From the IMG/VR virus record IMGVR_UViG_3300024344_000134, positions 1 to 22,736 of that record: a DNA stretch of 22,736 nt. One strand, given 5' to 3'. The position numbers and the translations under genes were made by a program. Each line of letters opens with the position of its first letter. The first letter of the stretch is position 1. Positions 3,801-19,955 of the stretch are shown here, in pieces. The notes under the pieces were generated by a model that did no database searches, was not told where the DNA came from, and saw only the letters and a program-made list of their open reading frames with translations. Source of the DNA: a virus.

Positions 3801-5347
3801 GAATAGAAATCATCTATCATCTTTGGTTCAAAACCTTTAACAACTACTTTATTTCCACTAACACCAAGTTTACCTTTTAAAATTGTGTTAACAATTAAAT
3901 CAGATAATTCGTTAGTCATACCTGATTTATCAGCAGCACTCTGTGAATATTTAGAAATTCTTTTTATAATTTCATCAAAGTTTCTTAAGTAATCGGTAGC
4001 CATTAAATTTGCTGAAGATTTTTTTCCTTCTAATCTTTGAATAGCTTGAAACTCTTCTTCAGGAAAAGGTCCTCTAGATCTTAAAGGTCGTGCTACATAT
4101 TTATCCACAAACTTATCAAATTTAGAAGCATTAGCTGCTCTTTGCATAACACCACTTGTAATACTTTTGCCTACTTTACCCGCACCTACAATAGCTGGAA
4201 TAATTGGAAAGCCCATTTCCCCTGCAAACTTAAGTTTGTTGTATAACATTCTTGTTGCATCTTCTTGAGCTGACTCTCTACCATCTCTATCTAAAGCTGT
4301 AAGTTCTCCTTCTTCAAAAAATAAATCACCAAATGTTCCAATGTTTTCTGCATCATAAACAACACCACCAGTTACTGCACCACCTACAAAAACACCAGCA
4401 AATTTTTGTTTGCCTGATAGCCTGTTCCATTTAGAAACTTCTTGAGCTAGTTTATATCCTTCTTTATTTCCTGCGGTTTTGACATATTTACCTTGTTTAA
4501 TTCCATTAATTGCTTTGTTGTACATTTTAAATGCAGTAGTAGTTAATTGATCTGCATATTTTCCAGCAGCTTTCCACCCACCATATAATTGAACAAGTGT
4601 TTCAGTTATTTTTCCAACTGCGGTTTCTCTTGCTTTTTCTTCAGCGTATTTTTCAACTTGACCAATAAAAGTTTGTTCCCACCAATTTTCTAATTGAGCT
4701 ACTCTTCCTTTATCAACAGGTAAATTTCTATCGTCAGCCCAATCCATAACCATTGCTCCAAGATTAGCAAAACCTTTTGGAATTTTAATACCACCAGATA
4801 ACACAGCTCCATAAATAGATTCAGTTATACCTACTTCACTTTCAAAAGGAATTCCTTTAGAAGACACTTTCATCGGGCCGGTTGCACCAGCTAAAACTAT
4901 GTTGTCTTTAAAAGTTTCTTTTTCTTTTTTATCACCATATTCAGATTCTAATGTAGGTCCTTTACCTTTGTCCCATACAGTATCGTATGTTTCAAAATCT
5001 AATTTAGCACCGGATAACATTCCCTCCATAGAAGCTATCTCGTCTCTATAATATTGTTTGTTTTCCTCTTCAGTATAATTTCTTGGATCTCTAAAATCTG
5101 GATCGTGTTTTAATTTTTCATCATAGTAAGCATCGTCACCATATTTTTTTCTGTATTTAAATTCTCTAACAATTTGACTAACACTGTCTAAAGCATTTTT
5201 AATATTACTTTGTTTTCTAATGTTAGCTTCACCTCTTTCTACTTCTTCGTCGTAGCTTAATTGTTTATCAACAGCTTCTACTACTTCCTCTTTCTTAAGT
5301 TTCTGTTCGTCTTCAACTAGTTTTCGAGGGTCAAAACCAAATGGCAT
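887..5347 (-). CDS. Very large internal virion / DNA-ejection protein candidate (1486 aa)
   Basis: This is the largest gene in the window and I cannot assign a named family. The first 100 or so residues are highly charged and helical. The body is mostly helical with many Lys/Asp/Glu, and has hydrophobic glycine/alanine-rich stretches at about 317-331, 378-392 and 1068-1092 that could insert into or cross a membrane. The C-terminal 150 residues are strongly basic (KKK and RR clusters around the region after residue 1350). Size, place (after the hub and small virion genes, just before lysis) and composition resemble the large ejected core proteins of podoviruses such as T7 gp16, but I see no transglycosylase motif. 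A tape-measure role is less likely because no tail-tube genes are visible. AGGAGG lies 5 bases before the ATG. The stop overlaps the next start. Confidence 0.85.
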   Translation of the reverse strand: MPFGFDPRKLVEDEQKLKKEEVVEAVDKQLSYDEEVERGEANIRKQSNIKNALDSVSQIVREFKYRKKYGDDAYYDEKLKHDPDFRDPRNYTEEENKQYYRDEIASMEGMLSGAKLDFETYDTVWDKGKGPTLESEYGDKKEKETFKDNIVLAGATGPMKVSSKGIPFESEVGITESIYGAVLSGGIKIPKGFANLGAMVMDWADDRNLPVDKGRVAQLENWWEQTFIGQVEKYAEEKARETAVGKITETLVQLYGGWKAAGKYADQLTTTAFKMYNKAINGIKQGKYVKTAGNKEGYKLAQEVSKWNRLSGKQKFAGVFVGGAVTGGVVYDAENIGTFGDLFFEEGELTALDRDGRESAQEDATRMLYNKLKFAGEMGFPIIPAIVGAGKVGKSITSGVMQRAANASKFDKFVDKYVARPLRSRGPFPEEEFQAIQRLEGKKSSANLMATDYLRNFDEIIKRISKYSQSAADKSGMTNELSDLIVNTILKGKLGVSGNKVVVKGFEPKMIDDFYSALTKKLNVSKADALKLVEELSNVHGSWADFLNVVVKGKNLNVSAKEFVNIMKERIRDTLSNEYKIFKDNGLRPVSEYAPSNDVMKEVADIFVRSAKANRKKLNPDDAMLVVKDIIKNVQLDPNTATPIFKYEAADFAKEKALITKNIADNITGGGKFKPDKKGGLIQTKKDLDAFQNLFGNYKNANKIISNVTTDLAEIAARDRFYNVIKTASDDMIKRGEKGIVYPTYNAARKAFGLDEKLVDASRGLQLPQKLGEKAYTVPINGMYTTEAIAQGLKFGALNSLGSITKNAAYQYAVMIPKGLIQAGKTVGGPFTHSRNFSSGAVTTVSLGNISLALTNPLFVLKSMKSAFNTLQPQILYRNKPGARPMLEYKSIDDYSNALRGEAGQSLYRFLLDEGMVNASAIYRDVIGLIEDTAKTGFLQKMWRKLGNKTQKFLKGAQDMYIAEDDIWKIFNFFAEDFKINRAYQAALKAGTLTKNQLPNRLEIMKMATKNVREMLPNYAYVSELVQASRRSPLGNFVSWPAEIIRTSNNIMAGAKREIKDPILKRIGWERAAGFATTVGIIGPAAVWGGMQAYGFTKDKLMALREFVPWFSEDSTLIPVYEDGKYKYIDFSRAFFYDTVTNPIQAMFTELNRDEDRPVIPAMTMGLVKAFARLVEPFVSESIWIGGVLDIYARKGQTKQGSRIWNERDSEGDKIFKTFKHLAKLYTPGSQVQMQRLYSAIRGTTIKGTEYEVTDELLGLIGLRKAPLDIERSMEIFIGNFLKAERDERKLIYAGTLTGDPIKDDNKIIKQYIFANKQRLETFNKMRRQYDAARVLGYSKKKIRQIFEDRGQGSLFRLISRNKFKPLGITEGMEQAYERISDKYGIKNPLSRRIKRKLEKIEKKLQRQKLNKDFRIEEERYLISEAPMMNAPDIMGTQNKGQPLAKTPMPIVNNAQMTMAKNPQTNLTRTEEALLSPSEKIIAGRT

Positions 5348-5355
5348 TTATCCTC

Positions 5356-6246
5356 CTAATCTGTCTTTATATCTTCAGCGATATATGTTTCGTACGGTAT
5401 AAATTCTGGACCTTGTTTAACGTAGGCTTTTTTAGTTACAAAATCTATGTAAACTCTACCATCTTTATAGTCGTCTTGGTTAGGGTCATAGTCTCTAAGA
5501 ACAATTTTTTCTCCCTCTCTTAGAATTTCAGCTGGATCATCTTCAATGTAGTACTGATAGCTGTCGTGAGGTACTTTATATGTACCAGCATCAATATCAT
5601 CCATAAACTCGTTAAGAATTTTAGCGTCACTAAATCCTATTTTATATGTAGAAGCAATTTGTTCTATTCTTCTGTTATCTGTTTTTTCATCTCTTATTAT
5701 TTCTTCTCTTTCAGTCTCTGCTGGACTTTGATCTTTTCTATATAAACTTTGTGTTGGAAATAATTGTTTTAATGCACTTTTCATATCAGGAAATCTTTCC
5801 GGGTCTTGTGTCATTAACATTTGTGCTCTTTTGTAATAAGCATCTTGTTCATCTTTACTTAAACTTTGCCAAATCTGCATGATGGTATTTCTTTTATTAC
5901 TGTACTCACCCATTTTAGTTTTTTGTAATTGTTGAAATGCCGGACCCGATGCTTTACCTATTGTCTGAAATATAGGTTGTCCACCTGGTTGAGATAAAAT
6001 CCCTGATCCAAGATTCATGAAAAAATCTGAAGCAGCATAAGGATACTTAGGAGTTAAAGACTCTATTACTTCCGACTGTTGTCTAACTCTGTCTACAATG
6101 TTGTTTTCATTTGGTTGAACGTTTTGATCAGCAGGATCACCTGTTCCTTTATACCCCTGTCTAGGTTTACTTAACCCAGTCGTAATTCCAGTTCCAGCAG
6201 ACCCGCCGATTCTAAACATTGGTCTTTGTAAAGTTCTATTAAACAT
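5356..6246 (-). CDS. Minor virion / internal protein with N-terminal FRIGG-GYKG segment
   Basis: This 296-residue protein has no family I can name. It opens with RPMFRIGGSAGTGITTGL (8-25) and GYKGTGDP (31-38), a Gly-rich start I associate with uncultured marine phage virion proteins. A Gln/Pro-rich region follows, then a helical part holding MLMTQDPERFPDMKSALKQLF (about 142-162). The C-terminal third is acidic with Tyr-rich beta-like stretches (VYIDFVTKKAYVKQGPEF). It starts one base after the stop of the gene at 6248 and ends 8 bases before the 1486-residue gene, so the three are almost certainly co-translated. The GYKG segment is shared with the 715-residue protein. Membership in the ejected/internal set is inferred from place and composition only. 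Confidence 0.75.
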   Translation of the reverse strand: MFNRTLQRPMFRIGGSAGTGITTGLSKPRQGYKGTGDPADQNVQPNENNIVDRVRQQSEVIESLTPKYPYAASDFFMNLGSGILSQPGGQPIFQTIGKASGPAFQQLQKTKMGEYSNKRNTIMQIWQSLSKDEQDAYYKRAQMLMTQDPERFPDMKSALKQLFPTQSLYRKDQSPAETEREEIIRDEKTDNRRIEQIASTYKIGFSDAKILNEFMDDIDAGTYKVPHDSYQYYIEDDPAEILREGEKIVLRDYDPNQDDYKDGRVYIDFVTKKAYVKQGPEFIPYETYIAEDIKTD

Positions 6247-6247
6247 A

Positions 6248-7129
6248 TTAATTAAGTGCCTTGTAAGCTCCTAATCCCATTGAAGCTATACCTAACGCCT
6301 GTTGCAACGGCGATTGGTTTGGTGTTACTTGTGATTGATACTGACCCATTGCACTACCAAATAGACCACCGATACCTGTACCGAAGTATCCAAGTCTTTC
6401 ATAAGGTTCGTACGCAGCCATTCTATTCGCTTCTCTTTGTTGATCGAGTTGCGCTTGCTGATATGCTTGTTGAGACGCGCCCGCTTGACCCAACGATTGA
6501 ATGTCTTGTCCACGTAATTGTGGCATTAGTTGAGCCATTCTTTGTTGGTCGGCCCCTAATTGTTGCATTTGTCCAAATGCTGTTTGAGCTTGTTGCCCAG
6601 CTTGTTGGAAATTCTGTTGTCTTAATTGTGCTTCTAATGCAGCTCTATCTAAATTAGATTGGGTTTGATATTCTGATCTCATTACACCTTCTCTACCACC
6701 ACCTAAGTTTCCAGATTGTGCTGCCATCAATCCCATCTGACTTAAATCTCCAGCTGCTTTTTTATCAAAAGATTTCATTGTAGCGTCGATAACCTGCTGT
6801 TGATACGGAGACATAAATTGTTTGTAGGCATCAGGACCTGTTAAGTCTTGTGCACCCATCATACTTGCTGGTAAACCAGCGTATGTTCCTGTTCCAGTTT
6901 GATATTGTCCAGCTGCTGTTAAGTATGGTGCATAAGCTCCGATACCTTGACCAGCCGTTGTAGCCATAGTGTAAGCATCTTTTTGCGCTTGATCTTGTGC
7001 TGCTACGGATGGTTGAAATTTTGTTGTATCTAATGCTTGAGACGTTAAGCCCGTTAACTGCGTTGCGTAATCTTTACCTAGATCTTCTACAAACTGTGGG
7101 GGTAATGCTCTTGATTCTGTTATTGCCAT
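6248..7129 (-). CDS. Gln/Ala-rich internal virion protein candidate
   Basis: The 293-residue protein is extremely rich in Gln, Ala and Gly. Residues about 150-240 form an uninterrupted, strongly helical Q/A block (repeated QQ, QAG, QAQ) of coiled-coil character. It is flanked by an N-terminal region with several YxxYL/GTGTY Gly-Tyr turns and a C-terminal hydrophobic, Gly-rich tail (GIASMGLGAYKAL). Podovirus ejection proteins such as T7 gp14 have similar low-complexity Q/A helices and a hydrophobic end, so an ejected or core role is plausible, but no family match is visible. The ATG comes one base after the stop of the 715-residue gene. AGGAG sits about 13 bases upstream, which is longer than ideal, so initiation is probably by coupling. 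Confidence 0.75.
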   Translation of the reverse strand: MAITESRALPPQFVEDLGKDYATQLTGLTSQALDTTKFQPSVAAQDQAQKDAYTMATTAGQGIGAYAPYLTAAGQYQTGTGTYAGLPASMMGAQDLTGPDAYKQFMSPYQQQVIDATMKSFDKKAAGDLSQMGLMAAQSGNLGGGREGVMRSEYQTQSNLDRAALEAQLRQQNFQQAGQQAQTAFGQMQQLGADQQRMAQLMPQLRGQDIQSLGQAGASQQAYQQAQLDQQREANRMAAYEPYERLGYFGTGIGGLFGSAMGQYQSQVTPNQSPLQQALGIASMGLGAYKALN

Positions 7130-7130
7130 T

Positions 7131-9278
7131 TTATAATACTTCTCCTATTCTCTCTGATACACTAAACATCTCTTGAGCGCCAGTGTTTCCTTGAGTTTCT
7201 TCTGATATTTTTCCGCCTTGCTCTAGGTTCTTCATCACGTTTTCCATGATTTCTGCACCTTTGTCAATATCTCCACCACCTGCTCCTCTTACAGCATCAG
7301 CTGTAAAAACAAATTCATTTCTAGATAATCTTGCAGGTACATCGTCAGCTTTTTCTTCTCCACCAATAGCAACGAAGCCTCCATTGTTTCTATAATCTTT
7401 TTCCATGCCTCCAAGGTCCATGAGCCCACCTTCTTGAGCCATAACTCTTGGTCTAGCCGTTGCTGAAGAAAATTTATTCATCAATCTCATCATTTCTTCT
7501 CTAAACTCTTCTAATTCATCAGCATTTAATTCTTTATAAGGTTTGTTAAACATTCTAAAAGAATGTTCATCTCTATCTCCTTCACTATCTCTGTAAAAAG
7601 GATCATCTACTGAAGCCATTATACCACCTTCGAAAGCTCCTATTCTTCCACCATCTTTAGCTACTGCATAATTTTCATAAGGTGCTGGGATTCCTAAATT
7701 TAAAAAAGGAAACGCTGCATTGATAGCTGCTATTTTATTTGGATCATCGCCAGCTTCTTCAATAGCTGCATTTAAACTTGTTCTAATTCCTTGTGGTGTA
7801 TCTTCTTCTTGTGTCAATGGATTAATTAATCTTCCACCTCTGTCAGTAAAACTTGTTTCATTTGGTGGCGCTTTGGTTCCCATTAAACCACCAATTCCTG
7901 TGACTATCCCTGCCATTTTTAAAGGATCAAATACTTGTGTGCCCAAATTTTTTCCTTTTCCAGCAGAAAATAAAAGAGGATTTGTTTTACTAAAAAATTT
8001 ATCTACACCAAAACCACCAAAACCTTTTGATTTAAACGCTTGTGTAAAAGGCATTCTTCCACCACCGCCATAATATATACCAGCTCCCAGAAGAGCCATC
8101 TTACCTATATCACTCTTTAAAACTTTTCCTGCTGCTTTGGCTACACCTTTAAAAGCTTTCTTAATACTACCTAAAAAATATCCTCTTCTTCCAGTTTCTG
8201 TATCCATGATACCACCGAAAGCTGCTGGTACTCTACCACCTCTCGCTAAATAAGATTTAAAAGTAGCACTTGTTGGGTAACCTGGTTGACCATAAAATTG
8301 ATATGGATAAACAGTGTCAGCAACTCCGTCGCCTTCTTCCACTACTTCTTCTTCTTCAACTTCACCTGTTCCACCTTGTTGAGATCTAAGAAATGCTTGA
8401 TAAGCAGGGTCATTCATATAATTTGGTTGTTGTTGACCTCCGCCACCGTCACCAGTTTTTTCTTTGTAGCCATATGTTGCAGGAATTTTATTTCCAGTCT
8501 TTGGATTTAATTTAAAACTTCCGTCAGGATTTTTTACATAAGTTTCAACATACTTTTCTAAATTACCTACGTTACCTGAATATAATAATCCCGGAGAGCC
8601 TCCATATTCTGCTGCATACTCAGCAAAAGATTGAGCGTTTTTCGGTGACAATGCTTTTACCATATTAAATTCTGCGGCAGTTAGTTTTCTTGGTTCTTCT
8701 TCAAGTAAAGCCTGTAATCCTGCAGGAAGATAGTGGCCGGCTTTTTTTAATCTTGCTAAATAAGCTCTTTCCCATTTAGGATTGTTAGGAAATCTATTGT
8801 ACAAATATTTTTGTAAAAAATTTACTTTCTTTGGTTCCCATGTGTTTGTATTTTTATTCCATGTTTGAGTTGCTTTTTGAAATGCTTGTTCTTCTTGAAA
8901 TTGTTTTGTCTTTTTAATTTGTTGTGGTGTAAGAGTAGAAGGAGGTGCAAAATCAGCTTCTATTTGATCTGGAACTGAAGGTCTAAACGTCGGACCTTCT
9001 CCACCCCCACCAACATTTAAATCTCTATCAGGTCTACCTTTTGTAGTTCCAGGTTTATTACCTACAGCCTTGTCATAAGATTTAGCAAAAGATTCAGTAG
9101 CCGCATCAGCTCCACCTTTATAACCAGGTCGTTTACCATTGCCACTTGATTTAACTAGCTGTGATATTCCACCTGTATTTTTTTGAATTCTACTTCCATA
9201 GGTATCGGCCCAGTCTCTTGCAATCTCTGGTTCGTTAGCAAATAAATATCTTCTTTGTTTCTCTGATTTGAATGGCAC
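7131..9278 (-). CDS. Large Gly-patch virion protein (conserved marine-phage type), GTG start
   Basis: This 715-residue protein starts with PFKSEKQRRYLFANEPEIA (2-20), a basic opening I recognise from marine phage virion-cluster proteins. GYKGG follows at 52-56, and there is an acidic run (VEEEEVVEEGDG) near 305-320. About 340-365 a GGRVPAAFGGIM patch precedes a cationic amphipathic helix and the hydrophobic ALLGAGIYYGGGG. Further GG patches (GGRIGAFEGGIM, EGGLMDLGGM) lead to a conserved-looking tail, DDVPARLSRNEFVFTADAV, near 641-660. No enzymatic motif is visible. The start is GTG, chosen because GGAGGAG lies 7 bases upstream and the MPFKSEK-type opening begins there; no ATG gives as good a start. 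The role (ejection, head completion or tail) is unknown. Confidence 0.8.
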   Translation of the reverse strand: MPFKSEKQRRYLFANEPEIARDWADTYGSRIQKNTGGISQLVKSSGNGKRPGYKGGADAATESFAKSYDKAVGNKPGTTKGRPDRDLNVGGGGEGPTFRPSVPDQIEADFAPPSTLTPQQIKKTKQFQEEQAFQKATQTWNKNTNTWEPKKVNFLQKYLYNRFPNNPKWERAYLARLKKAGHYLPAGLQALLEEEPRKLTAAEFNMVKALSPKNAQSFAEYAAEYGGSPGLLYSGNVGNLEKYVETYVKNPDGSFKLNPKTGNKIPATYGYKEKTGDGGGGQQQPNYMNDPAYQAFLRSQQGGTGEVEEEEVVEEGDGVADTVYPYQFYGQPGYPTSATFKSYLARGGRVPAAFGGIMDTETGRRGYFLGSIKKAFKGVAKAAGKVLKSDIGKMALLGAGIYYGGGGRMPFTQAFKSKGFGGFGVDKFFSKTNPLLFSAGKGKNLGTQVFDPLKMAGIVTGIGGLMGTKAPPNETSFTDRGGRLINPLTQEEDTPQGIRTSLNAAIEEAGDDPNKIAAINAAFPFLNLGIPAPYENYAVAKDGGRIGAFEGGIMASVDDPFYRDSEGDRDEHSFRMFNKPYKELNADELEEFREEMMRLMNKFSSATARPRVMAQEGGLMDLGGMEKDYRNNGGFVAIGGEEKADDVPARLSRNEFVFTADAVRGAGGGDIDKGAEIMENVMKNLEQGGKISEETQGNTGAQEMFSVSERIGEVL

Positions 9279-10377: not shown

Positions 10378-10541
10378 TATTCCATAAAGAAGCTTTTAGC
10401 TTCTATCTCTTGTTTTAATTCTTCTTGAAAAGTTGTATTTAATTTTTCTAACACAGCGTCTAAATCTCTTACTAAAGATTGAGCCACGTCTTCTTGATAT
10501 TCTTTACTGGCTCGTGTCAATGATTGTACTATCTTTGCCAT
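10377..10541 (-). CDS. Small coiled-coil protein, 54 aa
   Basis: The frame starts MAKIVQSLTRASKEYQEDVA and ends KSFFME before TAA. It is helical throughout, with heptad spacing of Leu/Val/Ile between residues 7 and 48 (SLVRDLDAVLEKLNTTF), and has no Gly or Pro to break it, so it probably forms a coiled-coil oligomer. Its ATG overlaps the stop of the hub gene (TAATG at 10539-10543) and its own stop overlaps the next ATG. The double coupling makes this very likely a real gene although it is short. The function is unknown; a hub plug, adaptor or assembly aid would suit its place. Confidence 0.7.
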   Translation of the reverse strand: MAKIVQSLTRASKEYQEDVAQSLVRDLDAVLEKLNTTFQEELKQEIEAKSFFME

Positions 10542-12760
10542 TATCTTCTTCCTCCTGAATGTATATCTAATCTAAACGTTCCTAATTTCCAGTTAGAATC
10601 TATAGCACTATTAGATATGGTTAATGCTACCGCTCTAGCTCTAGCTCTTGTATCAATTTTTTTAGTACTTGTTGTAATTGTAAAAGGACCTAAAGAAGAA
10701 CTCGCTGATGCATCATTAGGATAATCTCTTAGATCTAATTGCACTACTGTGTCTCCAGTTTGAGAAATAAAGTCAGGCACAACTCGACTTACTCTCATTA
10801 TAAACTCTCCATCTCCTCTTAAATCTGCAAGAGAAGTTGCTGCACCTCTAATAACTTTTTGAGTAATGTCATAATCACCTGAAGTTATATTAGCAGGAAT
10901 AGCACTTGTAGTACCACCTTTAATTTGATTTGTTCCAGTTTCATGTTCATAGTAAATAGTGGTTCCTTCTGTATTTCCTTCAACATCAAAAGAATCATCA
11001 TCACCAGCATCATAAGCTGTAGCATGTGGTAAACCAAACACAGCTGAGTCTTGCCAAGTAGTTCTTTTGCACAATGTACTTGCATTTGTATACCAAATAG
11101 GTCTTTCAAAAGTTGAGTCTAGATAACTATATAAAATTGATCTGTCGGTAACATTAGATGTAGAGGTTGGATAAAACCACATAACTTCTCCAAACAAGTT
11201 ATTAATTCCACAATATATTAATTGATGAGAAGTAGTGTTTAAATCATCATAAACATAGTCTTCTACCAAACAGTCCATAGATTCTAGTTTACCAGTGTAT
11301 CTAAAGAAACCATTGTCAGACATCCAATACGCAGCACCATCAACTTCAACGGCTGCATTCATTCCAATTAATCCACAGTTAGTTCCTACTTGTTCATAAG
11401 CAAATGTAAATGGAGTTCCTACAAATCTCATGGTAAATAAAGATGTGTCAGTCCAAACATAAATAGCATTTCTACCAAGTGTAGCTCCCATGATCCGTGA
11501 TCCGGCGGCCAGTCTTTGTGTACCAGCACTATTGGTTGCTGTTGGTGCCCAAGTGTTTATGTCTTCTTGGTTTGAAAATCTAATAAACATTTCATCTTGT
11601 GTAGATGTGTCTCCAATAGTTGTTTCAGTTCCAAATAAAACTAAGTGACGATCGGGAGTAGATACTAACATATCTCTAGACGCTGTGGGTGCACCTGTAA
11701 TAATTGTTGCTCTATTACCTGTTGCATTAGTTGCATTTGAATCCCATTCAAAAACAGCATTGTTATGAATTAAAGCAATAAGATTTCCACCTAAATTATC
11801 TAATGACCATAGACCAGGATCTGTAGTTATATCAGTGTTAGATGCTGCTGATCCCCATCCAGTCCAACTAGATGTATTGGTAACAGTAGCTCCGCCACTA
11901 TGGGCAGCTCTAGTTGAACCTCTGACTGCTCTTGTAATACCTGTAAAACTTGTTGCTGTTACGCCTGTATAAGAAATTTCTTCGGTACCTACTTGAAAAT
12001 AATTAGTTCCTGAAGAAGGAAAACCAGTTGTGCTTCCAACATTAATAGTTGTTCCTGATCCACCTGTTCCAAAAGCATTGTCTCCTAAACCTGGAGCTGT
12101 TAATGTAGTCGTTGTAGAACCCAATACTTTACCACCCCATAATGATATACCAAAACCATAAGCTCCCACCTGTTCAGCTGGTCCTACGTGATAGTATCTA
12201 AAATAAGTAATTCCTCCAGAAGTAGTAGCTCCACTTCCTGTTTCATTACTATCAACTGTAATTTTAAAATTATCAGCATCCACTATTTCAGTAACCATAA
12301 ACTTTTTGTCACAAAAAGTAGTTGATGAATAATTAGAATTAGTAATTGCACTAAAAGTAGAGGCGTTACCAAATAAACATATGTCTCCAGCTTGAAAGCC
12401 ATGAGATGAAGCTGTAATAGTTACAACGTTTTGACCGTTAGTAGTGCTAAACGCATTAGAAATAGCTGTGCCTGATGGATTAACTAGTGGGTGGATATCA
12501 TAATAAACACCACCTGTGTAAGCATATAAAATTCTGTTTGTTCCAATGATAGCATATTTTTGAGAGTCATTACTTACCATGTGATGCAAAGCTCTTGCCG
12601 CACCAGTAAGTTTACTTTCTCCTAATTGTTGCCATCCTCCTATTTTTTCAGGAGTACCATATCTAAATCTAACATTTTCTCCACCTGTCCATTGAGATTC
12701 AGCTCCGGTAGGTGTTACTTGTTTATTAAATCCTGGTAAAAAAGCTATTTTCTGTAGCAT
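10541..12760 (-). CDS. Tail hub / packaged-DNA stabilisation protein (P22 gp10-like)
   Basis: The 739-residue protein fits the beta-propeller hub proteins that close the portal channel of short-tailed phages (P22 gp10, T7 gp12 in role). It opens with an LPGFNKQVTPTG segment, then repeated beta blades (KYAIIGTNRILYAY; RHLVLFGTETTI; RNAIYVWTDTSLF; GAAYWMSDNGFFRYTG). It finishes in a last beta sheet with LGTFRLDIHSGGRR, an ending I associate with this family. An extra Ig-like or carbohydrate-type module sits at about 233-297 (NVGSTTGFPSSGTNYFQVG then EEISYTG), a unit found as an insert in several phage tail proteins. An AAGGA site lies about 8 bases before the ATG, in the 105-base intergenic region. 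The family is inferred by pattern, not by search. Confidence 0.75.
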   Translation of the reverse strand: MLQKIAFLPGFNKQVTPTGAESQWTGGENVRFRYGTPEKIGGWQQLGESKLTGAARALHHMVSNDSQKYAIIGTNRILYAYTGGVYYDIHPLVNPSGTAISNAFSTTNGQNVVTITASSHGFQAGDICLFGNASTFSAITNSNYSSTTFCDKKFMVTEIVDADNFKITVDSNETGSGATTSGGITYFRYYHVGPAEQVGAYGFGISLWGGKVLGSTTTTLTAPGLGDNAFGTGGSGTTINVGSTTGFPSSGTNYFQVGTEEISYTGVTATSFTGITRAVRGSTRAAHSGGATVTNTSSWTGWGSAASNTDITTDPGLWSLDNLGGNLIALIHNNAVFEWDSNATNATGNRATIITGAPTASRDMLVSTPDRHLVLFGTETTIGDTSTQDEMFIRFSNQEDINTWAPTATNSAGTQRLAAGSRIMGATLGRNAIYVWTDTSLFTMRFVGTPFTFAYEQVGTNCGLIGMNAAVEVDGAAYWMSDNGFFRYTGKLESMDCLVEDYVYDDLNTTSHQLIYCGINNLFGEVMWFYPTSTSNVTDRSILYSYLDSTFERPIWYTNASTLCKRTTWQDSAVFGLPHATAYDAGDDDSFDVEGNTEGTTIYYEHETGTNQIKGGTTSAIPANITSGDYDITQKVIRGAATSLADLRGDGEFIMRVSRVVPDFISQTGDTVVQLDLRDYPNDASASSSLGPFTITTSTKKIDTRARARAVALTISNSAIDSNWKLGTFRLDIHSGGRR

Positions 12761-12865: not shown

Positions 12866-13501
12866 CTATTTTTTAGGAAGTGTAAAGCCTTTAAACCAAG
12901 CAGGTAGTCCTATAAAAAGACGTTTGTCAAATTCGTTTTCTTTAGCTAACTTAGAGCCTTTTCTATTATAATGTAAAAATACTTGTCCACAATCTTTACC
13001 AGTAAATTCTTCCCGCCAATGTTCTAAATCACAACCAGAATATATTAACATGTCTCCTTTATCTAAAGTTATTTTAATTCCAGCCTGTCCTTTTCTACCT
13101 GTAGGATCTAAATATATGGGCCATGGATCGCCTCCAAGGTTTAAAGTTGTAGATATTTCACATGAATATCTGTCTTTATGTCTAGCTAAAACATCTCCTT
13201 TTTTGTAAATTCTTGCATAAGAATACGTTTCGCTTAACTTTAATTTTGTGTGTTTTTCCATTACGGGTTTTACTTTTTGTAATAAAGTTTCCATCACTAA
13301 ATCTCCATAATGAGAGTATGTATTAGGAACTTGTTGATCATTCCATACACCCCAATAATCAGTAAACGGTGATATATATTTTTGATCAAATAAAAATCTT
13401 GCTACTTTTCTTTTATTTAAAAAATAACCGTAAGCAAAATCTGCTACTTCTGAAGAAATAGCTCCTTTTAAAACACTGTATTTATTTTTTTTGAATGACA
13501 T
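12866..13501 (-). CDS. 2OG-Fe(II) oxygenase-like protein, third of the trio
   Basis: The 211-residue protein has the double-stranded beta-helix layout of prolyl-4-hydroxylase-type dioxygenases, which couple 2-oxoglutarate decarboxylation to hydroxylation. The pattern is YARIYKKGDVLARHKDRYS (95-113), giving the HxD pair His108/Asp110, then DMLIYSGCDLEHW with the distal His161. The position 12 residues on, where the middle gene of the trio has its 2OG-binding Arg, is Gln173 (CGQVFLHYN), so cosubstrate binding may be atypical or use another residue. Its ATG overlaps the preceding gene by 20 bases and is preceded by AAGGAG at 6 bases. The fold call is good; the substrate is unknown. It is clearly a different subfamily from its two neighbours. 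Confidence 0.75.
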   Translation of the reverse strand: MSFKKNKYSVLKGAISSEVADFAYGYFLNKRKVARFLFDQKYISPFTDYWGVWNDQQVPNTYSHYGDLVMETLLQKVKPVMEKHTKLKLSETYSYARIYKKGDVLARHKDRYSCEISTTLNLGGDPWPIYLDPTGRKGQAGIKITLDKGDMLIYSGCDLEHWREEFTGKDCGQVFLHYNRKGSKLAKENEFDKRLFIGLPAWFKGFTLPKK

Positions 13502-14210
13502 TCAATACTCCTTTCGGTATGGCTTGACAGTTAAAATGTATAAACCTAAATGGTTCGTACCCCATATCAACTATGTATTGATGAGGCATATAAGATGGAA
13601 AAAATATCATACGACCAGGTTGAACTTTATAGTGCACTTGTGATGTAGCATAAGTTATTTTTGTCTTATCTTTTTCTGGTAGTAAATTCATAACATTACC
13701 TGCTCTTGGGTCTTCAAACAATGGCATCGATGTTTTGTCACTAGCTTTTAAAAAATAAAAACCTGACATATGTCCGTTCCAATGAGTGTGTAATGTGTGG
13801 TGTCCACCACCTTTTTTTGCAAATTCTTGTACCCACAATTCTGTAGTAAATATTTCAAAGTTACTTAAATCAAAGCCCATTTCACCTAATAAGTTATGTG
13901 ATGTTGCTCCTATGTAATTTTGTATTTCTAAAAAAGCAGGATCTCCTATTAACGATGTAGAATGAAAAACATTTCCCATGTCTCCTTTATCACCAAATTT
14001 TTTATTTCTTTTATCTATTGCTTCTTTTAAATTTTTCTTAGACTCTTCTATGTATTTATCTGATGCTTTATTTAAATCTTTAACAAATTCTGGTGCATCT
14101 CCCCACCATATTGGACATTTAAAATATTCTTCTAATTGTAATTGTTGCGGATAAGATGCTTGATCTTTTTTTATTTTTCTTTGTTTTTGTTTTAATTTTT
14201 TATTTTTCAT
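13482..14210 (-). CDS. 2OG-Fe(II) oxygenase, second of the trio (TIGR02466/2OG-FeII_Oxy_5-like)
   Basis: I place the start at the ATG at 14208-14210, giving 242 residues, because it overlaps the upstream stop as ATGA. In-frame ATGs at 14222 and 14234 would lengthen the overlap to 16 or 28 bases and add up to 8 residues. Numbered from the 14234 start, the core shows HTHWNGHMSGFYFLKA (149-164) with candidate iron ligands His149/His151, then PGRMIFFPSYMPHQ with distal His218 and Arg230 for 2-oxoglutarate. That spacing, including SG-x-Y-x-L after the His and FPS before the distal His, is typical of the 2OG-FeII_Oxy_5 group common in marine phages. The N-terminus is very Lys-rich (about 20 residues) and may bind nucleic acid or be disordered. 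The substrate is unknown. Confidence 0.8.
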   Translation of the reverse strand: MKNKKLKQKQRKIKKDQASYPQQLQLEEYFKCPIWWGDAPEFVKDLNKASDKYIEESKKNLKEAIDKRNKKFGDKGDMGNVFHSTSLIGDPAFLEIQNYIGATSHNLLGEMGFDLSNFEIFTTELWVQEFAKKGGGHHTLHTHWNGHMSGFYFLKASDKTSMPLFEDPRAGNVMNLLPEKDKTKITYATSQVHYKVQPGRMIFFPSYMPHQYIVDMGYEPFRFIHFNCQAIPKGVLNVIQKK

Positions 14211-14833
14211 CTGTAAGGCCATCCTAAATTCCATATTACTAAACTATGTCTAGATCCTTTTTTAACTGGGCACACTCTGTGCCAAACAAAACCAGGGAAT
14301 ACAACTAAAGATCCTTTAGGTAGTATTTCTTTACACTTTCTAATGTTAGGTTTTTTATCCGGGTCTAAGTTTCTAAAATCAAATTCTAACTCACCACCTT
14401 TATAATCTTTTGGGTCTGATAAAGTAACTGTGACAGATAGCTTTCTAATTTTACCATTTGATGGATCTCCTTCTTGTCTTTGATAGGGTCTATCCCACCC
14501 ATCACAATGCCAATCATAAAACTGACCTTTTTCATATTTTGTAAATTGACAATTTTCAGAATAATCCCATTGAAAATTCCAGCCTGCACTTGCATTTGCT
14601 TCATGAATGTATGGATGTATTTCTCTATATATCCATCTATCAGACATCCAAACAATGTTAGAATCTCTTTTTTGTTTTAGATCTTTTATTTCTTTTTGAT
14701 TTAATTTTTTATCACCGTATCCACCTGTAATCGCCATTTGATCTTGTATAGATTTACCATACTTAACAATGTCGTCACAAATACGTTCTGGGATTGCTGA
14801 TTGAAAGTACCAATAATAATTTGTTAAATTCAT
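14207..14833 (-). CDS. 2OG-Fe(II) oxygenase, prolyl/PKHD hydroxylase type, first of the trio
   Basis: This 208-residue enzyme has a full set of active-site residues: FYDWHCDGW (105-113) with His109 and Asp111, distal His185 in GFVWHRVCP, and Arg195 in GSRHSLVIWNLGWP, the usual +10 spacing for binding 2-oxoglutarate. KLSVTVTLSDPKDYKGGEL (131-149) is the characteristic strand-and-turn of the P4Hc/PKHD group. Members hydroxylate protein side chains, or less often small molecules or nucleobases. It is the first gene after a promoter embedded in the 3' end of the glycine-rich gene at 14866-16746 and is coupled to the next oxygenase by ATGA. I see no good Shine-Dalgarno sequence before the ATG; with a predicted leader of about 13 bases, initiation may be nearly leaderless. 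Confidence 0.9.
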   Translation of the reverse strand: MNLTNYYWYFQSAIPERICDDIVKYGKSIQDQMAITGGYGDKKLNQKEIKDLKQKRDSNIVWMSDRWIYREIHPYIHEANASAGWNFQWDYSENCQFTKYEKGQFYDWHCDGWDRPYQRQEGDPSNGKIRKLSVTVTLSDPKDYKGGELEFDFRNLDPDKKPNIRKCKEILPKGSLVVFPGFVWHRVCPVKKGSRHSLVIWNLGWPYR

Positions 14834-14852: not shown

Positions 14853-14880
14853 AATATAGCATTTCCTATGAGACTGTCAA
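14853..14880 (-). promoter_or_regulatory. Sigma70-type promoter for the oxygenase cassette
   Basis: Minus strand: a perfect TTGACA -35 (14875-14880) and a TATATT -10 (14853-14858) with a 16-base spacer. The -35 is formed by the Leu-Thr codons of the last residues (GTLTVS) of the upstream glycine-rich protein. The predicted start lies near 14846, about 13 bases before the ATG of the first oxygenase. Confidence 0.6.
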
Positions 14881-16746
14881 GGTACCAGAGGCTGTAAATC
14901 TTGCAACTGTTGTACAACCTGGAGCAGGAGATACTGAATTAGTTCCTGGAGTTACTGAAAATGATTTTGAATTAGGTCCTCTTACAATAACAACACCTGA
15001 ACCACCTTTTCCACCAGGAGTACAAACACCTGGAGTAGGAGACGCTCCTGATCCACCACCTCCACCACCACCAGATCCTACATTAGCAGTTCCTGATCCA
15101 CCACCAAAATTTCCTGGAGTTCTTCTTCCACCATTTCCACCACCAGCTTTTCCTGCACCTGTACATCCGTTGTTACCCGCAGCACCACCTCCACCACCAG
15201 CGTACGCTACACAACTTCCTGTAATTGCATTACATGCTCCGCAACCACCAGGTCCACCTTTAACACAACAACCAACTCCACCAGCTACACCAACTGAGCC
15301 AATACCACCTCCACCACCACCGGCGTTTGGATTTCCGTTTCCACCAGCATTACCTTGAGGGATAGGAGACCTTGGAGGAGTATTACCAGCAGCAGCTGGT
15401 CCTCCAGGAGTACCACCTCCACCACCTGATCCACCGGTTTTTCCAGCATAACCAGGAGAAGAGTGAACTCCACCACCACCTCCACCACCATCGGATGTTA
15501 TTTTATCTGTATTTTCTGTACCACAAACATTGAATATTGAAGCTGAACCAGTAGTTCCCGCTTGTCCTGGTGAACTTGAAGGAGTACCACCATCTCCACC
15601 ACCTCCAACAGTTATGTTGTATGTTCCTACATTTATACTTAATGCGCTTCCTCTTAATGGACTTGGTCCATAACCAGATGCACGATAACCTCCTGCACCT
15701 CCACCACCAGCTCCATCATTACATGGTGCATATCCAGAACCTCCACCACCTGCTCCACCTACTACTAAATAATCTATTGTAGTTCCTACTACAGGCCATG
15801 TTCCTTGTTTCTTAGCTTGAAACTGACTTTGCATTGACCACACACCACTTGCTTTATTAATTTCTTTTATTAAAACTATACCTGGGCCACCTGTTCCACC
15901 AGCAGCATTATTACCACCAGCTCCACCTCCACCACCAGAATTTGTAGTTCCAGCTACACCTGCAGCGCAAGCTAATCCACCTTTTCCACCACCTCCAACT
16001 CCACCTGCTTGAGGAGCACCAGATGCATGTCTGTTTCCACCTCCTCCACCACCAGCAAATTGTCCACACACAGTAGCTCCTCTGCATGAAGAATTTGCAA
16101 TATAAAAAGGTTGAGGGGCAGATCCAAAAGTAGAAGTAACTGGAGATCCAGCTCCTCCTGTTCCGCCTCCTGTTGATCCTGGATGTGATCCAGATGTTCC
16201 AGCAGCTCCAACTGCAGCCGCACCACCGCCACCGCCGCCACCGTAATTCGTTCCTGGTCCTGGTCCTCCCGGATCGGGACTACCAGCTCCACCATCATTT
16301 CCTTGACAAGCAGTTCCACTACCAGCAGCTTTAGCTGGTACTGCTCCACCACCACCTGAGCCTCCTGGTCCACCGACAGCTCCATTACCACCACCAAAAC
16401 CACCACCTGTTGATGTAATACAAAAGCCTACTGAATTATTTCCTGTACCACCAGGATTTCCATTAGGACCCGGAGTTCCTCCTCCGCCAACTGTAACGGG
16501 ATAAGATACGTTTCCACAAACTGATACTGAAGAAGATATTTGTAAACCACCAGCACCACCACCGGCTGCTGTTCCACCGCCGCCACCCCCGCCACCACCG
16601 ACGATTAGTGTATCGACTACTCTTGTTCCTGGTTGTGTTGTAATTGTTCCTGTAGAAGTTTTAGATGTAACTTTACACTTACCAAAAGAAGCTTGGTTAA
16701 GTTTTCCTATTATTCCGCCGTTTGCTGATCCTGCTGGACTAGCCAT
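14866..16746 (-). CDS. Glycine-rich tail fibre / adhesin candidate, two-unit form (626 aa)
   Basis: The protein is dominated by runs of Gly broken by Pro, Ala, Ser and Asn, in two units. Unit 1 begins VVDTLIVGGGGGGGGG near 43 and ends with VLIKEINKASGVWSM. Unit 2 begins TTIDYLVVGGAGGGG near 320 and ends GVVIVRGPNSKSFSVTPGTN. A short beta tail, RFTASGTLTVS, closes it. Each unit has a hydrophobic strand, a poly-Gly lattice and a beta strand ending in a GG turn (YPVTVGGGG, YNITVGGGG). Polyglycine-helix adhesins such as the gp38 tips of T-even phages are a known precedent. Cysteines recur (VSVCGN, VGFCITS), which is unusual. AAGGAG precedes the ATG by 7 bases. Its N-terminus, unit order and C-terminus parallel the gene at 17253-19955, so the two are paralogues. 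Confidence 0.85.
   Translation of the reverse strand: MASPAGSANGGIIGKLNQASFGKCKVTSKTSTGTITTQPGTRVVDTLIVGGGGGGGGGTAAGGGAGGLQISSSVSVCGNVSYPVTVGGGGTPGPNGNPGGTGNNSVGFCITSTGGGFGGGNGAVGGPGGSGGGGAVPAKAAGSGTACQGNDGGAGSPDPGGPGPGTNYGGGGGGGAAAVGAAGTSGSHPGSTGGGTGGAGSPVTSTFGSAPQPFYIANSSCRGATVCGQFAGGGGGGNRHASGAPQAGGVGGGGKGGLACAAGVAGTTNSGGGGGAGGNNAAGGTGGPGIVLIKEINKASGVWSMQSQFQAKKQGTWPVVGTTIDYLVVGGAGGGGSGYAPCNDGAGGGGAGGYRASGYGPSPLRGSALSINVGTYNITVGGGGDGGTPSSSPGQAGTTGSASIFNVCGTENTDKITSDGGGGGGGVHSSPGYAGKTGGSGGGGGTPGGPAAAGNTPPRSPIPQGNAGGNGNPNAGGGGGGIGSVGVAGGVGCCVKGGPGGCGACNAITGSCVAYAGGGGGAAGNNGCTGAGKAGGGNGGRRTPGNFGGGSGTANVGSGGGGGGGSGASPTPGVCTPGGKGGSGVVIVRGPNSKSFSVTPGTNSVSPAPGCTTVARFTASGTLTVS
15677..15699 (-). 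repeat. Copy of a 23-base exact match shared with 18934-18956
   Basis: It lies in the conserved GGYRASGYG-coding segment of the second unit. The flanks on both sides also match well, so this is the most conserved stretch between the two adhesin genes and a possible site for homologous exchange. Confidence 0.8.
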
Positions 16747-16756
16747 ATGAGTCTCC

Positions 16757-17215
16757 TTATGCGGATACCCAAGCTAGCGCTGATGCATCCCAGTTAAAAT
16801 CTTGTGGTTCTGTGTCGTATGAATTTGTTGAATTATTCCAAACACCTTCATCTTTAGCAGTCCATCTTTGATTATCTTCATCCCAAGCAATAGTATATCT
16901 TTTATCGCCGTCATATGTAGTAACTGTTGGATTAGGGACTGGTGCTTCCCAATCATCATTTGCGTTTAATGACCAAGATGCGTAAGGTTGTGGTGAAATA
17001 AATTTATCTTTTACAGAGTCGTATGTATATCCAATACCTGCGTATTGTTTTCTAAAATTGTGATTATAAGAAGTTTGTTTCCAAGTTCCACCTTTAAAAA
17101 AGTTTTGACACCATGTTTCTCCATCAACATGCATGTCTGAAGGAACACAATCGTTTCCTACAACAACAACTCTAGTTACTTTATTATCTCCATCTAATTC
17201 TGCGAAATGTGCCAT
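16757..17215 (-). CDS. Conserved marine-phage fibre-neighbour protein (MAHFAELD type)
   Basis: This 152-residue protein starts MAHFAELDGDNKVTRVVVV, an opening I recognise from many cyanophage and pelagiphage hypothetical proteins coded next to tail fibres. The central part has GGTWKQTSYNHNFRKQYAGI (42-61) and SPQPYASWSLNAND (74-87), also typical. The C-terminus is Trp-rich (IAWDEDNQRWTAKDEGVWNN), suggesting a small beta domain. It is secretion-signal free and has no membrane segment. It lies between the two glycine-rich adhesin genes, with AAGGAG 7 bases before the ATG and a strong promoter just upstream. A fibre-assembly or fibre-tip role is inferred from position only. Confidence 0.8.
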   Translation of the reverse strand: MAHFAELDGDNKVTRVVVVGNDCVPSDMHVDGETWCQNFFKGGTWKQTSYNHNFRKQYAGIGYTYDSVKDKFISPQPYASWSLNANDDWEAPVPNPTVTTYDGDKRYTIAWDEDNQRWTAKDEGVWNNSTNSYDTEPQDFNWDASALAWVSA

Positions 17216-17238
17216 ATTATTACTCCTTAAATTTATAT

Positions 17239-17267
17239 TTTATATTTTAATTTTAACTTATTGTCAA
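17239..17267 (-). promoter_or_regulatory. Strong sigma70-type promoter embedded in the end of the 900-aa adhesin gene
   Basis: Minus strand: perfect TTGACA (17262-17267), 17-base spacer, TATAAA (17239-17244). A second TATAAA follows at 17232-17237. The -35 is encoded by the Leu-Thr codons of the GTLTIS tail and the stop codon lies in the spacer. Transcription would start near 17232, about 17 bases before the ATG of the 152-residue gene. This is the best promoter in the window. Confidence 0.7.
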
Positions 17268-19955
17268 CGTTCCATTAACTGTAAATGTCATTACAGTACA
17301 GCCTCCTGCAGGGCCTGGTAATGTTGCTTTTGTGTTAGTTCCTGGGGCTACACTATAGCCTGGTCCAGCCGGTCCTGGTGCTCTTAATATAACGACCCCT
17401 GATCCACCTGCTCCACCACTATTATTATAGGACGGATTATAAGAACCTTGGGCACCGCCACCGCCGCCACCTCTATTAACGGTTCCAGTTCCACCAGTTC
17501 CACAATTAGCTTTACTTCCTGCTCCACCTGTTCCACACGGAGAAGCTGCTCCAACTGTTCCTGGTCCTGGGGCTCCATTATAACCTACACCACCTCCGCC
17601 ACCACCAGCGTAAGATAATGCTGATCCTGAAATACTGTTTGGTGCTCCTGCTCCACCTCTACCAGCTTGAATTGGACTTTGTGGTCCTGGTGCACCAACT
17701 CCTGCTTCAGTTGCTCCACCTCCGCCACCACCAGCTGTTTCTCCATTTTGAGATGAATTACCACCAGGGAAACCTTGTGATGCACAAGTTCTTGGAATAT
17801 TTCCTGCGCCACCATAAGCACCTGTACCACCTGGTCCTGGGGGAGTTTGCCCTGGATTATTTAATGGGTTTTCACCCATGTAACCACCTGCTCCAGATCC
17901 ACCATCTCTGGCATCTATCCCTGATGCTCCAGAACTAGCACCACCACCACATGAAGGCGCTGATCCGCCACCACCACCAGCAGATGTAATATATCCTACA
18001 GAAGAGCATCCTCCTCTAACGTTTGCTGCACCACCAGCACCAACTTGAACATAATTTGCTCCTGGTTCTAAAAATACTTTTGTTCCACCTGGAAAAGAAG
18101 TTCTATAACCACCTCCACCTCCACCACCACCAGAGTATGTTGTTGCAGGTGTTACTCCTCCACCACCACCGCCTGCTACTACTAAGTAATCAAAACCGTT
18201 AGAAGGTACATCTCCAACTATATTTAAATTTGCTGATGCTTTAAATTTTGCAATAAAAGTTGATACACCACCGTCTGGTGAACAGACTGGAGCGCAAGAA
18301 CTATTTGTTGTTACATATTGATTTGTTCTTAAAATTACAATTCCTGAACCACCATTACCTGAAGGATATGTTCCACTACTACTTGTTCCTCTAGAACCAG
18401 CTCCTCCTCCACCACCAGTATTAACCGATCCAGATGTTCCAGGACTAGCATTACCACCAGCTCCTCCACCACCATATCCACCGTTTCTTGGTGAGCCTGG
18501 TGTACCTTCGGTACCACCACCTCCACCACCGGCATAATATCTATTTCCTCCTGTTATCTCATTTGGTGCTCCCGTACCACCTGGGCCACCAGGGGTATTA
18601 GTAGTAGCTCCGCCACCGCCACCACCTCTTCTGGCTCCTGGATTGTTAGCACCACCTGGGTTTCCTTCTGGTATGGTAAAGCCACCCGCATTTCCAGTTC
18701 CTCCGGATAAAAGTGCACCACATGGTTCACCAGGTGCTCCACCTCCTGAACCTCCTGGTCTAGTTCCACCACCACCTCCAGATGCTGTTATCGTTAAAAA
18801 GCTTGAAGGTCCTCCACAGTGTCCTGGATGTCCTGGAGAAGCGTCTCCTGTTCCACCAGCTCCAACTACGACTGGATAAGTCCCTAAACTTGCACATAAT
18901 ATTGTTCCTTGCAGTGGGCTCGGTCCATATCCTGATGCACGATAACCTCCTGCACCACCTCCTGAATAAGGTGATCCACCACCTCCACCACCACCTACTA
19001 TTAAATAATCTATATAAGCTTTTCTTGAAGCCCATGAATTTGTTAATCTTTTTTCGTAAACACTATTCATACTCCAGACTCCTGGAGCATTGTTTAATTC
19101 TTTTACTATTACAACTCCTGACCCACCTATTCCTCTAGGGCCTGTTGCTGGATGAGGTGTTCCACCACCACCAGTTCCACCGCCGCCACCACCAGTATTT
19201 GCAGCTCCAAGAGAAGGATTTAATGGTCCTGCTGGATCATCACTTACACCTATTCCTTTTCCGCCACCACCTGGTCCGGCTGCACCACCTGTATAACTTG
19301 AGTTAGCAGCTCCACCGCCACCACCAGCTCTTAATGTACAATCTCCTGGCCATGCAGATGAACCTGTTCCACCATCTCCACCTTTAGGACCTGATCCGTT
19401 TTGACCAACTGCGCCTTTTCCACCGCCGCCACCGCCGCCGTGAGAACAAGCATTAGGATTTCCTGTTCCACCAGCATTACCTTGTGAACATGGACCAGCT
19501 GAACCACCAGCTTTTCCCCAGCCACCGCCGCCGCCAGATCCACCTGGAGCACCAACTGCTGGTCCTGGAGTTGGGGAAGGTTGAGAAGGACCTCTTTGAT
19601 CCGTTCCTCCGCCACCGCCGCCAGTTGAAGTTATACAAAAACCTACTGAATTAGTTCCTGCACCTGCACATGAACCACCTCCTGGGGGAGCAACACCTGC
19701 TGCACCTCCACCACCAACTGTAATTGGATAATCTGTGCCACCTGTAACAGTTGCATTACAAGAACTTAAATAACCACCTGCTCCGCCTCCGCCACCAGAT
19801 GCACCGCCACCACCGCCGCCACCGACGACTAAAACATCTACTTTTGTAGTTCCTGGTTGTGTTGTAAAAGTTGAAGTTGATTTTACTTGAGTAACTTTAT
19901 CACCACCACTAGAAGTTACATTACAAGGTCCAATTATTCCGCCATTGCCAGCCAT
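17253..19955 (-). CDS. Glycine-rich tail fibre / adhesin candidate, three-unit form (900 aa)
   Basis: Three successive poly-Gly units can be seen. They start at VDVLVVGGGGGGG (39-51), YIDYLIVGGGGGGG (about 312) and FDYLVVAGGGGGG (about 585), each with a strand ending in VGGGG or VGAGG and closing with GSG(I/V)VI(V/L). Between units 1 and 2 is the linker NNAPGVWSM, a GVWS(L/M) element seen in many marine phage fibres. The C-terminus is TFTVNGTLTIS. Cysteines recur at intervals (SSCNA, GFCITS, GPCSQG, NACSHG). The N-terminus shares NGGIIG, TQPGT and the first strand with the 626-residue protein. A strong AGGAGG lies about 10 bases before the ATG. A cell-surface-binding fibre of polyglycine-helix type is the best guess; the target is unknown. 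Confidence 0.85.
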   Translation of the reverse strand: MAGNGGIIGPCNVTSSGGDKVTQVKSTSTFTTQPGTTKVDVLVVGGGGGGGASGGGGGAGGYLSSCNATVTGGTDYPITVGGGGAAGVAPPGGGSCAGAGTNSVGFCITSTGGGGGGTDQRGPSQPSPTPGPAVGAPGGSGGGGGWGKAGGSAGPCSQGNAGGTGNPNACSHGGGGGGGKGAVGQNGSGPKGGDGGTGSSAWPGDCTLRAGGGGGAANSSYTGGAAGPGGGGKGIGVSDDPAGPLNPSLGAANTGGGGGGTGGGGTPHPATGPRGIGGSGVVIVKELNNAPGVWSMNSVYEKRLTNSWASRKAYIDYLIVGGGGGGGSPYSGGGAGGYRASGYGPSPLQGTILCASLGTYPVVVGAGGTGDASPGHPGHCGGPSSFLTITASGGGGGTRPGGSGGGAPGEPCGALLSGGTGNAGGFTIPEGNPGGANNPGARRGGGGGGATTNTPGGPGGTGAPNEITGGNRYYAGGGGGGTEGTPGSPRNGGYGGGGAGGNASPGTSGSVNTGGGGGAGSRGTSSSGTYPSGNGGSGIVILRTNQYVTTNSSCAPVCSPDGGVSTFIAKFKASANLNIVGDVPSNGFDYLVVAGGGGGGVTPATTYSGGGGGGGGYRTSFPGGTKVFLEPGANYVQVGAGGAANVRGGCSSVGYITSAGGGGGSAPSCGGGASSGASGIDARDGGSGAGGYMGENPLNNPGQTPPGPGGTGAYGGAGNIPRTCASQGFPGGNSSQNGETAGGGGGGATEAGVGAPGPQSPIQAGRGGAGAPNSISGSALSYAGGGGGGVGYNGAPGPGTVGAASPCGTGGAGSKANCGTGGTGTVNRGGGGGGAQGSYNPSYNNSGGAGGSGVVILRAPGPAGPGYSVAPGTNTKATLPGPAGGCTVMTFTVNGTLTIS
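18934..18956 (-). repeat. Copy of a 23-base exact match shared with 15677-15699
   Basis: It codes the GGYRASG part of the second unit of the 900-residue adhesin. Its partner lies in the second unit of the 626-residue adhesin. Confidence 0.8.

Follow-up and report, generated by a model that had tools for sequence, protein, structure and literature searches.

A conserved trio of 2-oxoglutarate-Fe(II) oxygenase genes beside Gly-rich fibre genes in a probable SAR11 virus: a candidate adhesin-maturation cassette

Layout of the oxygenase trio and the adjoining fibre genes

The stretch of DNA analysed here (the window) is the 22,736-base virus record IMGVR_UViG_3300024344_000134, which carries on its minus strand three consecutive, overlapping genes for putative 2-oxoglutarate (2OG)-Fe(II) oxygenases, directly behind genes for Gly-rich fibres. 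The first oxygenase of this cassette, P3 (14207-14833, minus strand), has 208 amino acids (aa), belongs to PF13640 (P4Hc/PKHD-like) and matches phrog_61. It is followed by P2 (13482-14234, minus strand; 250 aa; PF13759, 2OG-FeII_Oxy_5) and P1 (12866-13501, minus strand; 211 aa), the latter assigned to phrog_2954 / T4-GC615 and bearing the database name ‘ferrochelatase’. The open reading frames (ORFs) overlap by 28 bp (P3/P2) and 20 bp (P2/P1). The two Gly-rich fibre/adhesin genes, gene 1 (14866-16746, minus strand) and gene 2 (17253-19955, minus strand), each encode a product with 34% Gly and match PF21722 (Gly_rich_2) with 89 and 143.4 bits, respectively, both above the curated cut-off of 24.3 bits, which bears out the flanking Gly-rich fibres of the first-pass annotation. 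In the order of minus-strand transcription the genes run Gly-rich gene 2, a small phrog_7759 gene, Gly-rich gene 1, P3, P2 and P1. The host is probably SAR11, because the nearest named relatives of the trio are the Pelagibacter phages HTVC033P (79.9% DNA identity over 99% of the trio; protein identities of 82% for P1, 75% for P2 and 81% for P3), HTVC023P and 023Pt_psg01.

Enzyme families of the trio and the identity of P1

Inspection of the three ORFs showed the His-based iron sites exactly as they had been described from the sequence. Counted with the initial Met, they are H109-x-D111...H185 with R195 at +10 in P3, H149-x-H151...H218 with R230 at +12 in P2, and H108-x-D110...H161 with Q173 at +12 in P1. 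The residues are strongly conserved among relatives: in P3 the His (52/52), the Asp (52/52), the third His (50/51) and the Arg (50/50); in P2 the first (40/40), second (40/40) and third His (37/38), together with the Arg (31/38); and in 78 diverse relatives of P1 the His (78/78) and Asp (78/78) of the HxD motif and the third His (77/77), while the Arg at +2, the Gln at +12 and the His at +16 are each present in 76 of 76. Comparison by hhalign gave probabilities of 8% for P1-P3, 0.6% for P1-P2 and 92% for P3-P2, the last over only 37 columns. The separate family assignments and these values confirmed that the trio consists of three distinct subfamilies, and a local duplication as its origin was ruled out by the hhalign comparisons. 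Putative P1-P3 fusions exist in some phages: phrog_3531 is matched by P1 in one half and by P3 in the other, the P1 protein of S-SCSM1 has a second oxygenase-like domain, and other single ORFs match both enzymes.

P3 was assigned by family, and P1 and P2 by AlphaFold2 models. P3 scores 60.2 bits against PF13640 (cut-off 27), and its profile matches include PiuC (9ghl, E 4.1e-6) and vCPH (E 0.075); it lies far below the NCBIfam cut-off for YbiX-type PKHD equivalogs (best 56.2 vs. 143 bits). P2 scores 52.7 bits against PF13759 (cut-off 27) and stays just under the TIGR02466 cut-off of NCBIfam (60.8 vs. 62.5 bits). Its model, with a predicted local distance difference test (pLDDT) score of 89, has its best match in 3bvc (Z 19.7); PHD2, P4H and vCPH come next. 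The canonical HxD/E was not found at the first iron motif of P2, which reads HxH in 40 of 40 relatives, and the iron may be held by three His; PF13759 is the sole family to which P2 is assigned.

P1 is identified with phrog_2954 at E 8.8e-49 in the PHROG search, and relatives were found in 154 phage records. The window protein matched no family in Pfam and none (0 families) in NCBIfam, and a sequence search of solved structures returned nothing relevant. Its model has a mean pLDDT of 96.3, and the top PDB matches in Foldseek are the Pseudomonas putida prolyl-4-hydroxylase structures 4iw3 and 4j25 (best E 1.2e-9), followed by Dictyostelium PHD and PHD2. In the VIA comparison all 50 listed rows were 2OG-type enzymes (Z 14.7-16.5), and no chelatase fold appeared among the 50 Foldseek and 50 VIA rows listed, an absence that is in itself no proof. 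No P1 relative (0/78) matched PF00762, which we take to be the Pfam ferrochelatase family, at E 0.05; in the weak Pfam matches of these 78 proteins 2OG families came first, namely 2OG-FeII_Oxy_2 (3 members with a best value of 1.9e-4) and PhyH (3 members), and 3 of the 78 weakly matched PF13532, presumably the AlkB-type family. P1 thus has the HxD...H triad and the predicted double-stranded beta-helix fold of the Fe(II)/2OG oxygenase superfamily. By its predicted structure it is an enzyme of the 2OG-oxygenase fold and not a ferrochelatase, an identity rejected on the Pfam result together with the modelled fold. The invariant Arg at +2 and His at +16 could bind the 2OG carboxylate.

The ferrochelatase label has been used in print. 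Passages of PMC9599517 (2022, mSystems) describe co-located 2OG-Fe(II) oxygenases beside a ‘ferrochelatase’ in HTVC023P-type phages, phrog2954 is counted as ferrochelatase in the part of PMC11561400 that gives the ecological analysis, and in an excerpt of PMC3037559 T4-GC615 is entered as ‘Hyp. with ferrochetalase domain’, while DNA repair or 2OG signalling is proposed for cyanophage 2OG enzymes.

Coupling of the oxygenases to Gly-rich fibres

To describe how the trio is arranged in related viruses, we used 161 IMG/VR loci, which fell into 144 dereplicated groups; each oxygenase scan of IMG/VR kept the best 80 matches. The full trio was present in 115 of the 144 groups, and in all of these (115/115) its genes lay in the order P3-P2-P1 on one strand. 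Among the 110 trio loci whose sequence extends 1 kb or more upstream of P3, a Gly-rich ORF was found upstream in 109; the remaining locus (L082) is covered there for only about 1 kb. We then added distant P1 loci (253 loci, forming 62 clusters at 70% and 22 clusters at 50% identity). In the 70% clusters Gly-rich coding lay upstream of P1 in 22/55 at 1-2 kb and in 16/48 at 2-3 kb, vs. 2/57, 2/45 and 2/41 in the first, second and third kb downstream; in the 50% clusters it was seen at 1-2 kb in 6/19 upstream vs. 2/18 downstream. The signal weakens with the distance of P1, yet it persists.

The coupling was also examined from the fibre side, with a motif built from the window’s own fibres, a choice that favours their kin, and with the S74 chaperone fibre motif as control. 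The scans gave at least 119 Gly-rich and at least 120 S74 stretches, from which 118 and 120 loci were used (across all locus sets, L137 and L231 recur by id, and L347 is the contig of L057). Relatives of P1, P2 or P3 were present in 47 of the 118 Gly-rich loci vs. 6 of the 120 S74 loci. In the 3 kb downstream of the fibre they were found in 35/66 Gly-rich vs. 5/81 S74 loci (Fisher 1.1e-10), and upstream in 3/72 and 1/58, respectively; 93 of 95 oxygenase ORFs lay on the strand of the fibre. Dereplication was based on the non-oxygenase proteins with greedy representatives, as single-linkage grouping was set aside because the oxygenases themselves joined loci (3/20 groups with an oxygenase). After this step the counts were 29/85 vs. 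5/90 (Fisher p 1.8e-6), and 12/55 vs. 4/75 for relatives within 3 kb downstream (Fisher p 0.006). Half of the pairs (21/42) combine a Gly-rich gene with a lone P2-type HxH enzyme gene behind it, often at a distance of 150-250 bases. PF21722 was searched for in half of the 80 distant P1 contigs (8/40 with a match) and in 40 of the 120 S74 loci (0/40). The coupling of trio-type oxygenases to Gly-rich fibres is specific. The finding that would have counted most against the first-pass annotation, a trio sitting mostly in phages without such fibres, was reversed for the trio itself and from the fibre side, and in the distant P1 relatives the pairing held in part.

Named phages gave a similar picture. 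The window’s order of the trio genes is shared by HTVC033P, HTVC023P and 023Pt_psg01; in HTVC033P an additional small ORF separates P1 from P2. A search of flanks only had given a Gly-rich ORF in 10 of 19 loci and overlooked the Syn9 and S-CREM1 fibres; 18 named phage records were therefore searched whole for PF21722. It was found in 15 of them, 14 above the cut-off, which is no base rate since the records were chosen for carrying related oxygenases. In 12 of the 18 the oxygenase cluster has a Gly_rich_2 match no more than about 6 kb away (HTVC033P, HTVC023P, 023Pt_psg01, HTVC008M, Mosig, S-SM1, S-RSM4, DSL-LC04, S-CREM1, S-CAM8, Syn9 and ACG-2014b), so that the pairing spans podovirus-type pelagiphages, the myoviruses HTVC008M and Mosig, and cyanophages such as S-SM1, S-RSM4, S-CAM8 and ACG-2014b. 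HTVC023P has a second pair, the Gly-rich gp70 followed by the P2-like gp71, and the freshwater phage DSL-LC04 has a Gly-rich gene with a single P2-type HxH enzyme. In S-SCSM1 and S-H35 Gly_rich_2 is far from the oxygenase cluster, and the sole match in S-RIM32 is below threshold and some 8 kb from it. Tryptophan halogenase genes were noticed in or near the oxygenase clusters of S-CREM1, Syn9 and HTVC008M, and in the first two Gly_rich_2 lies upstream of the halogenase-bearing cluster; halogenation of the same Gly-rich fibre is a guess.

The small protein encoded between the two Gly-rich genes (phrog_7759; 16757-17215, minus strand) starts with MAHFAEL. Its homologues stand beside Gly-rich genes and oxygenases in HTVC033P, HTVC023P, 023Pt_psg01 and HTVC008M; it is a possible constant partner in assembly. 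In S-SM1 and S-RSM4 a protein with an identical start lies directly ahead of the oxygenases.

The remaining surroundings were less in line with the first-pass annotation, which had placed a tail hub next to the trio and had read a promoter in front and a structured gap behind as marks of a self-contained unit. The neighbour at 10541-12760 belongs to phrog_3287, a ‘virion structural protein’, which lends the tail hub no support. A strong sigma-70-like promoter candidate (14853-14880, minus strand; TTGACA-16-TATATT, 11/12) does lie ahead of P3, overlapping the end of Gly-rich gene 1. However, promoter-like matches in the region were fewer than in shuffles (13 observed vs. 22.0), and the gap behind P1 (12761-12865, minus strand), with a predicted hairpin of fold z = -2.15, held no terminator-like site or T run. 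A self-contained transcription unit is thus unsupported by promoter counts, terminator search and gap fold. Rfam gave no match anywhere in the window. An ORF of 1486 aa at 887-5347 (minus strand) has no PHROG match and sits where HTVC033P and 023Pt_psg01 have long structural-region ORFs.

Proposed function, alternatives and known systems

Given the fold and iron sites, an unvarying gene order and the coupling to Gly-rich fibres in many phages, we regard it as fairly probable that the trio is a maturation cassette hydroxylating the phage’s own Gly-rich adhesin, the candidate substrate. The fibre genes and the cassette would be expressed together late, and the Fe(II)-dependent enzymes of 2OG fold would hydroxylate fibre side chains during folding, before or during assembly, the different active sites serving different residues. 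Our first guess for the target of P3 and P1 is Pro in X-Pro-Gly, because P3 is of the P4Hc type, the predicted fold of P1 is P4H/PHD-like, and 44% and 42% of the Pro residues in the two window fibres precede Gly; PG dipeptides number 18 and 30, vs. 13.8 and 24.0 in shuffles. Pro before Gly is the context used by collagen hydroxylases. We infer that hydroxylation could stiffen the Gly-rich fold, tune receptor contact, or stabilise or diversify the adhesin tip.

Bacterial relatives of P1 are consistent with a peptide-acting family, without amounting to proof. In Brevundimonas the P1 homologue is flanked by two lasso-type genes: one is cyclase-like and scores 256 bits against NF033535 (cut-off 525, not reached), the other is a B2 gene with 71.2 bits against NF033537 (cut-off 33, exceeded). 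This lasso-like cluster (4574-9187 of locus L541) also holds an HprK-related kinase-like gene and a small ORF resembling PqqD on visual inspection. Elsewhere the homologue lies between a nonribosomal peptide synthetase gene and a PhyH gene (L543), beside a phosphopantetheinyl transferase (L562), or beside an AMP-binding/carrier/reductase protein (L531). Passages of PMC9266682 describe CanE, an Fe/2OG enzyme that hydroxylates a lasso precursor.

Several observations weigh against fibre hydroxylation by the trio. Most of the fetched trio loci are close relatives, and P1 has a Gln at the site normally occupied by Arg or Lys in 2OG enzymes. The Pro content of fibres with an oxygenase is only weakly higher than in those without (4.7% vs. 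3.7%, p 0.01, a value that ignores kinship), and their Lys, Asn and Asp content shows no difference. Most chromosomal P1 neighbours (e.g. YebC, ArgG, AhpC, an acyltransferase and a GDSL lipase) are not peptide clusters and share no common theme. Genes of the P1 or P2/P3 type occur in S-PM2, S-P4 and HTVC027P, whose whole records have no PF21722 match; P1 of S-P4 lies among replication genes, and the three-gene oxygenase cluster of HTVC027P (17093-18754 of its locus), on the strand opposite to its neighbours, adjoins tail collar genes without a Gly-rich gene. Cyanophage P3 relatives often stand between uvsW and uvsY, and in Mosig (12984-14220 of its locus) a putative haem oxygenase and a bilin reductase follow directly behind the oxygenase run, which suits the older tetrapyrrole reading. 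The neighbouring Gly-rich fibres proposed in the first-pass annotation as modification target are thus the leading candidate by virtue of the coupling, while related clusters occur also without them.

The adjacency could be merely positional if the tail-tip regions of marine phages gather cargo and the oxygenases act elsewhere. Not only oxygenase but also haem oxygenase, bilin reductase and halogenase genes cluster near tail or neck genes, and the oxygenases of S-PM2 and S-RIM32 adjoin short tail fibres. Such a landing-site effect is weakened, though, by the other fibre class, S74, with only 6/120 loci, and by the fixed side (35/66 downstream vs. 3/72 upstream) and order (115/115) of the genes, and we consider it rather unlikely. 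That the trio modifies a host protein during infection (a translation factor, the ribosome or a surface receptor) is suggested by the top structural match of P1, a P. putida prolyl-4-hydroxylase solved in complex with EF-Tu; a Foldseek rank shows fold and not substrate, however, and the coupling to one fibre class would be left unexplained, so that this too appears unlikely.

A role in host-metabolite or tetrapyrrole metabolism, with the ‘ferrochelatase’ serving iron-using partners, or with 2OG draw-down signalling nitrogen stress, agrees with the passages of PMC9599517, PMC11561400 and PMC3037559 referred to above and with the Mosig gene run. It is made improbable by the lack of any Pfam ferrochelatase match among the 78 P1 relatives, the weak matches led by 2OG families, and the 2OG-type AlphaFold2 fold. 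Nucleic-acid repair or base modification, an earlier proposal cited in a passage of PMC9146016, would fit the cyanophage P3 relatives beside uvsW/uvsY and the three weak PF13532 matches of P1 relatives. The window trio lies within the structural block, not beside replication genes, and we rate this account as very improbable.

Beyond maturation of the window’s own adhesin, we tentatively put forward, as a possibility we would not yet bet on, a modular adhesin-maturation system common to marine and some freshwater phages. It would comprise a Gly-rich receptor-binding fibre, often the small ‘MAHFA’ protein, swappable oxygenases (P1, P2, P3 and P1-P3 fusions) and, in cyanophages like Syn9 and S-CREM1, a flavin halogenase, jointly writing non-standard side chains on the fibre; on this view P1 would found a new family of peptide hydroxylases, long concealed by its ferrochelatase label, that has relatives in lasso clusters and binds its co-substrate at an unusual site. 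Marine phages commonly carry 2OG oxygenases as ‘auxiliary’ genes of unexplained role. Should P1 prove to hydroxylate peptides and the phage’s own fibre be the true substrate, a large class of supposed host-metabolism genes would become virion-maturation genes, and the chemical diversification of receptor-binding proteins would be directly testable in cultured pelagiphages and cyanophages.

The occurrence of the trio in HTVC033P, HTVC023P and 023Pt_psg01 is already in print, while the reassignment of P1 from ferrochelatase, the specific coupling to Gly-rich fibres and the Gly_rich_2 matches near the clusters of named phages are new; for the fibre-substrate idea no relevant paper was found in the open-licence literature. 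Compared with CanE as described in passages of PMC9266682, the bacterial P1 homologue likewise occurs in a cluster for a ribosomal peptide, whereas phage P1 sits with fibres and not with lasso genes; the two are likened by description, not by sequence. P3 resembles the PKHD/P4Hc hydroxylases (PF13640; PiuC 9ghl, Sbal_3634 3dkq and viral vCPH 5c5t) in its HxD...H...Arg site and differs from them in its distance from the YbiX-type cut-offs and in its fibre gene context. P2 agrees with the PF13759/TIGR02466 proteins (3bvc, 2rg4) in its PF13759 score, its structural match to 3bvc and the retained HxH, and differs by falling short of TIGR02466; no characterised member of this family was encountered in the analysis. 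The closest known system is the ‘2OG-Fe(II) oxygenase + ferrochelatase’ set of HTVC023P-type phages, which has the same genes and the same adjacency; the passages of PMC9599517 on this set read the ‘ferrochelatase’ as an iron-insertion partner and contain no fibre coupling, whereas here P1 is reassigned and the coupling was tested.

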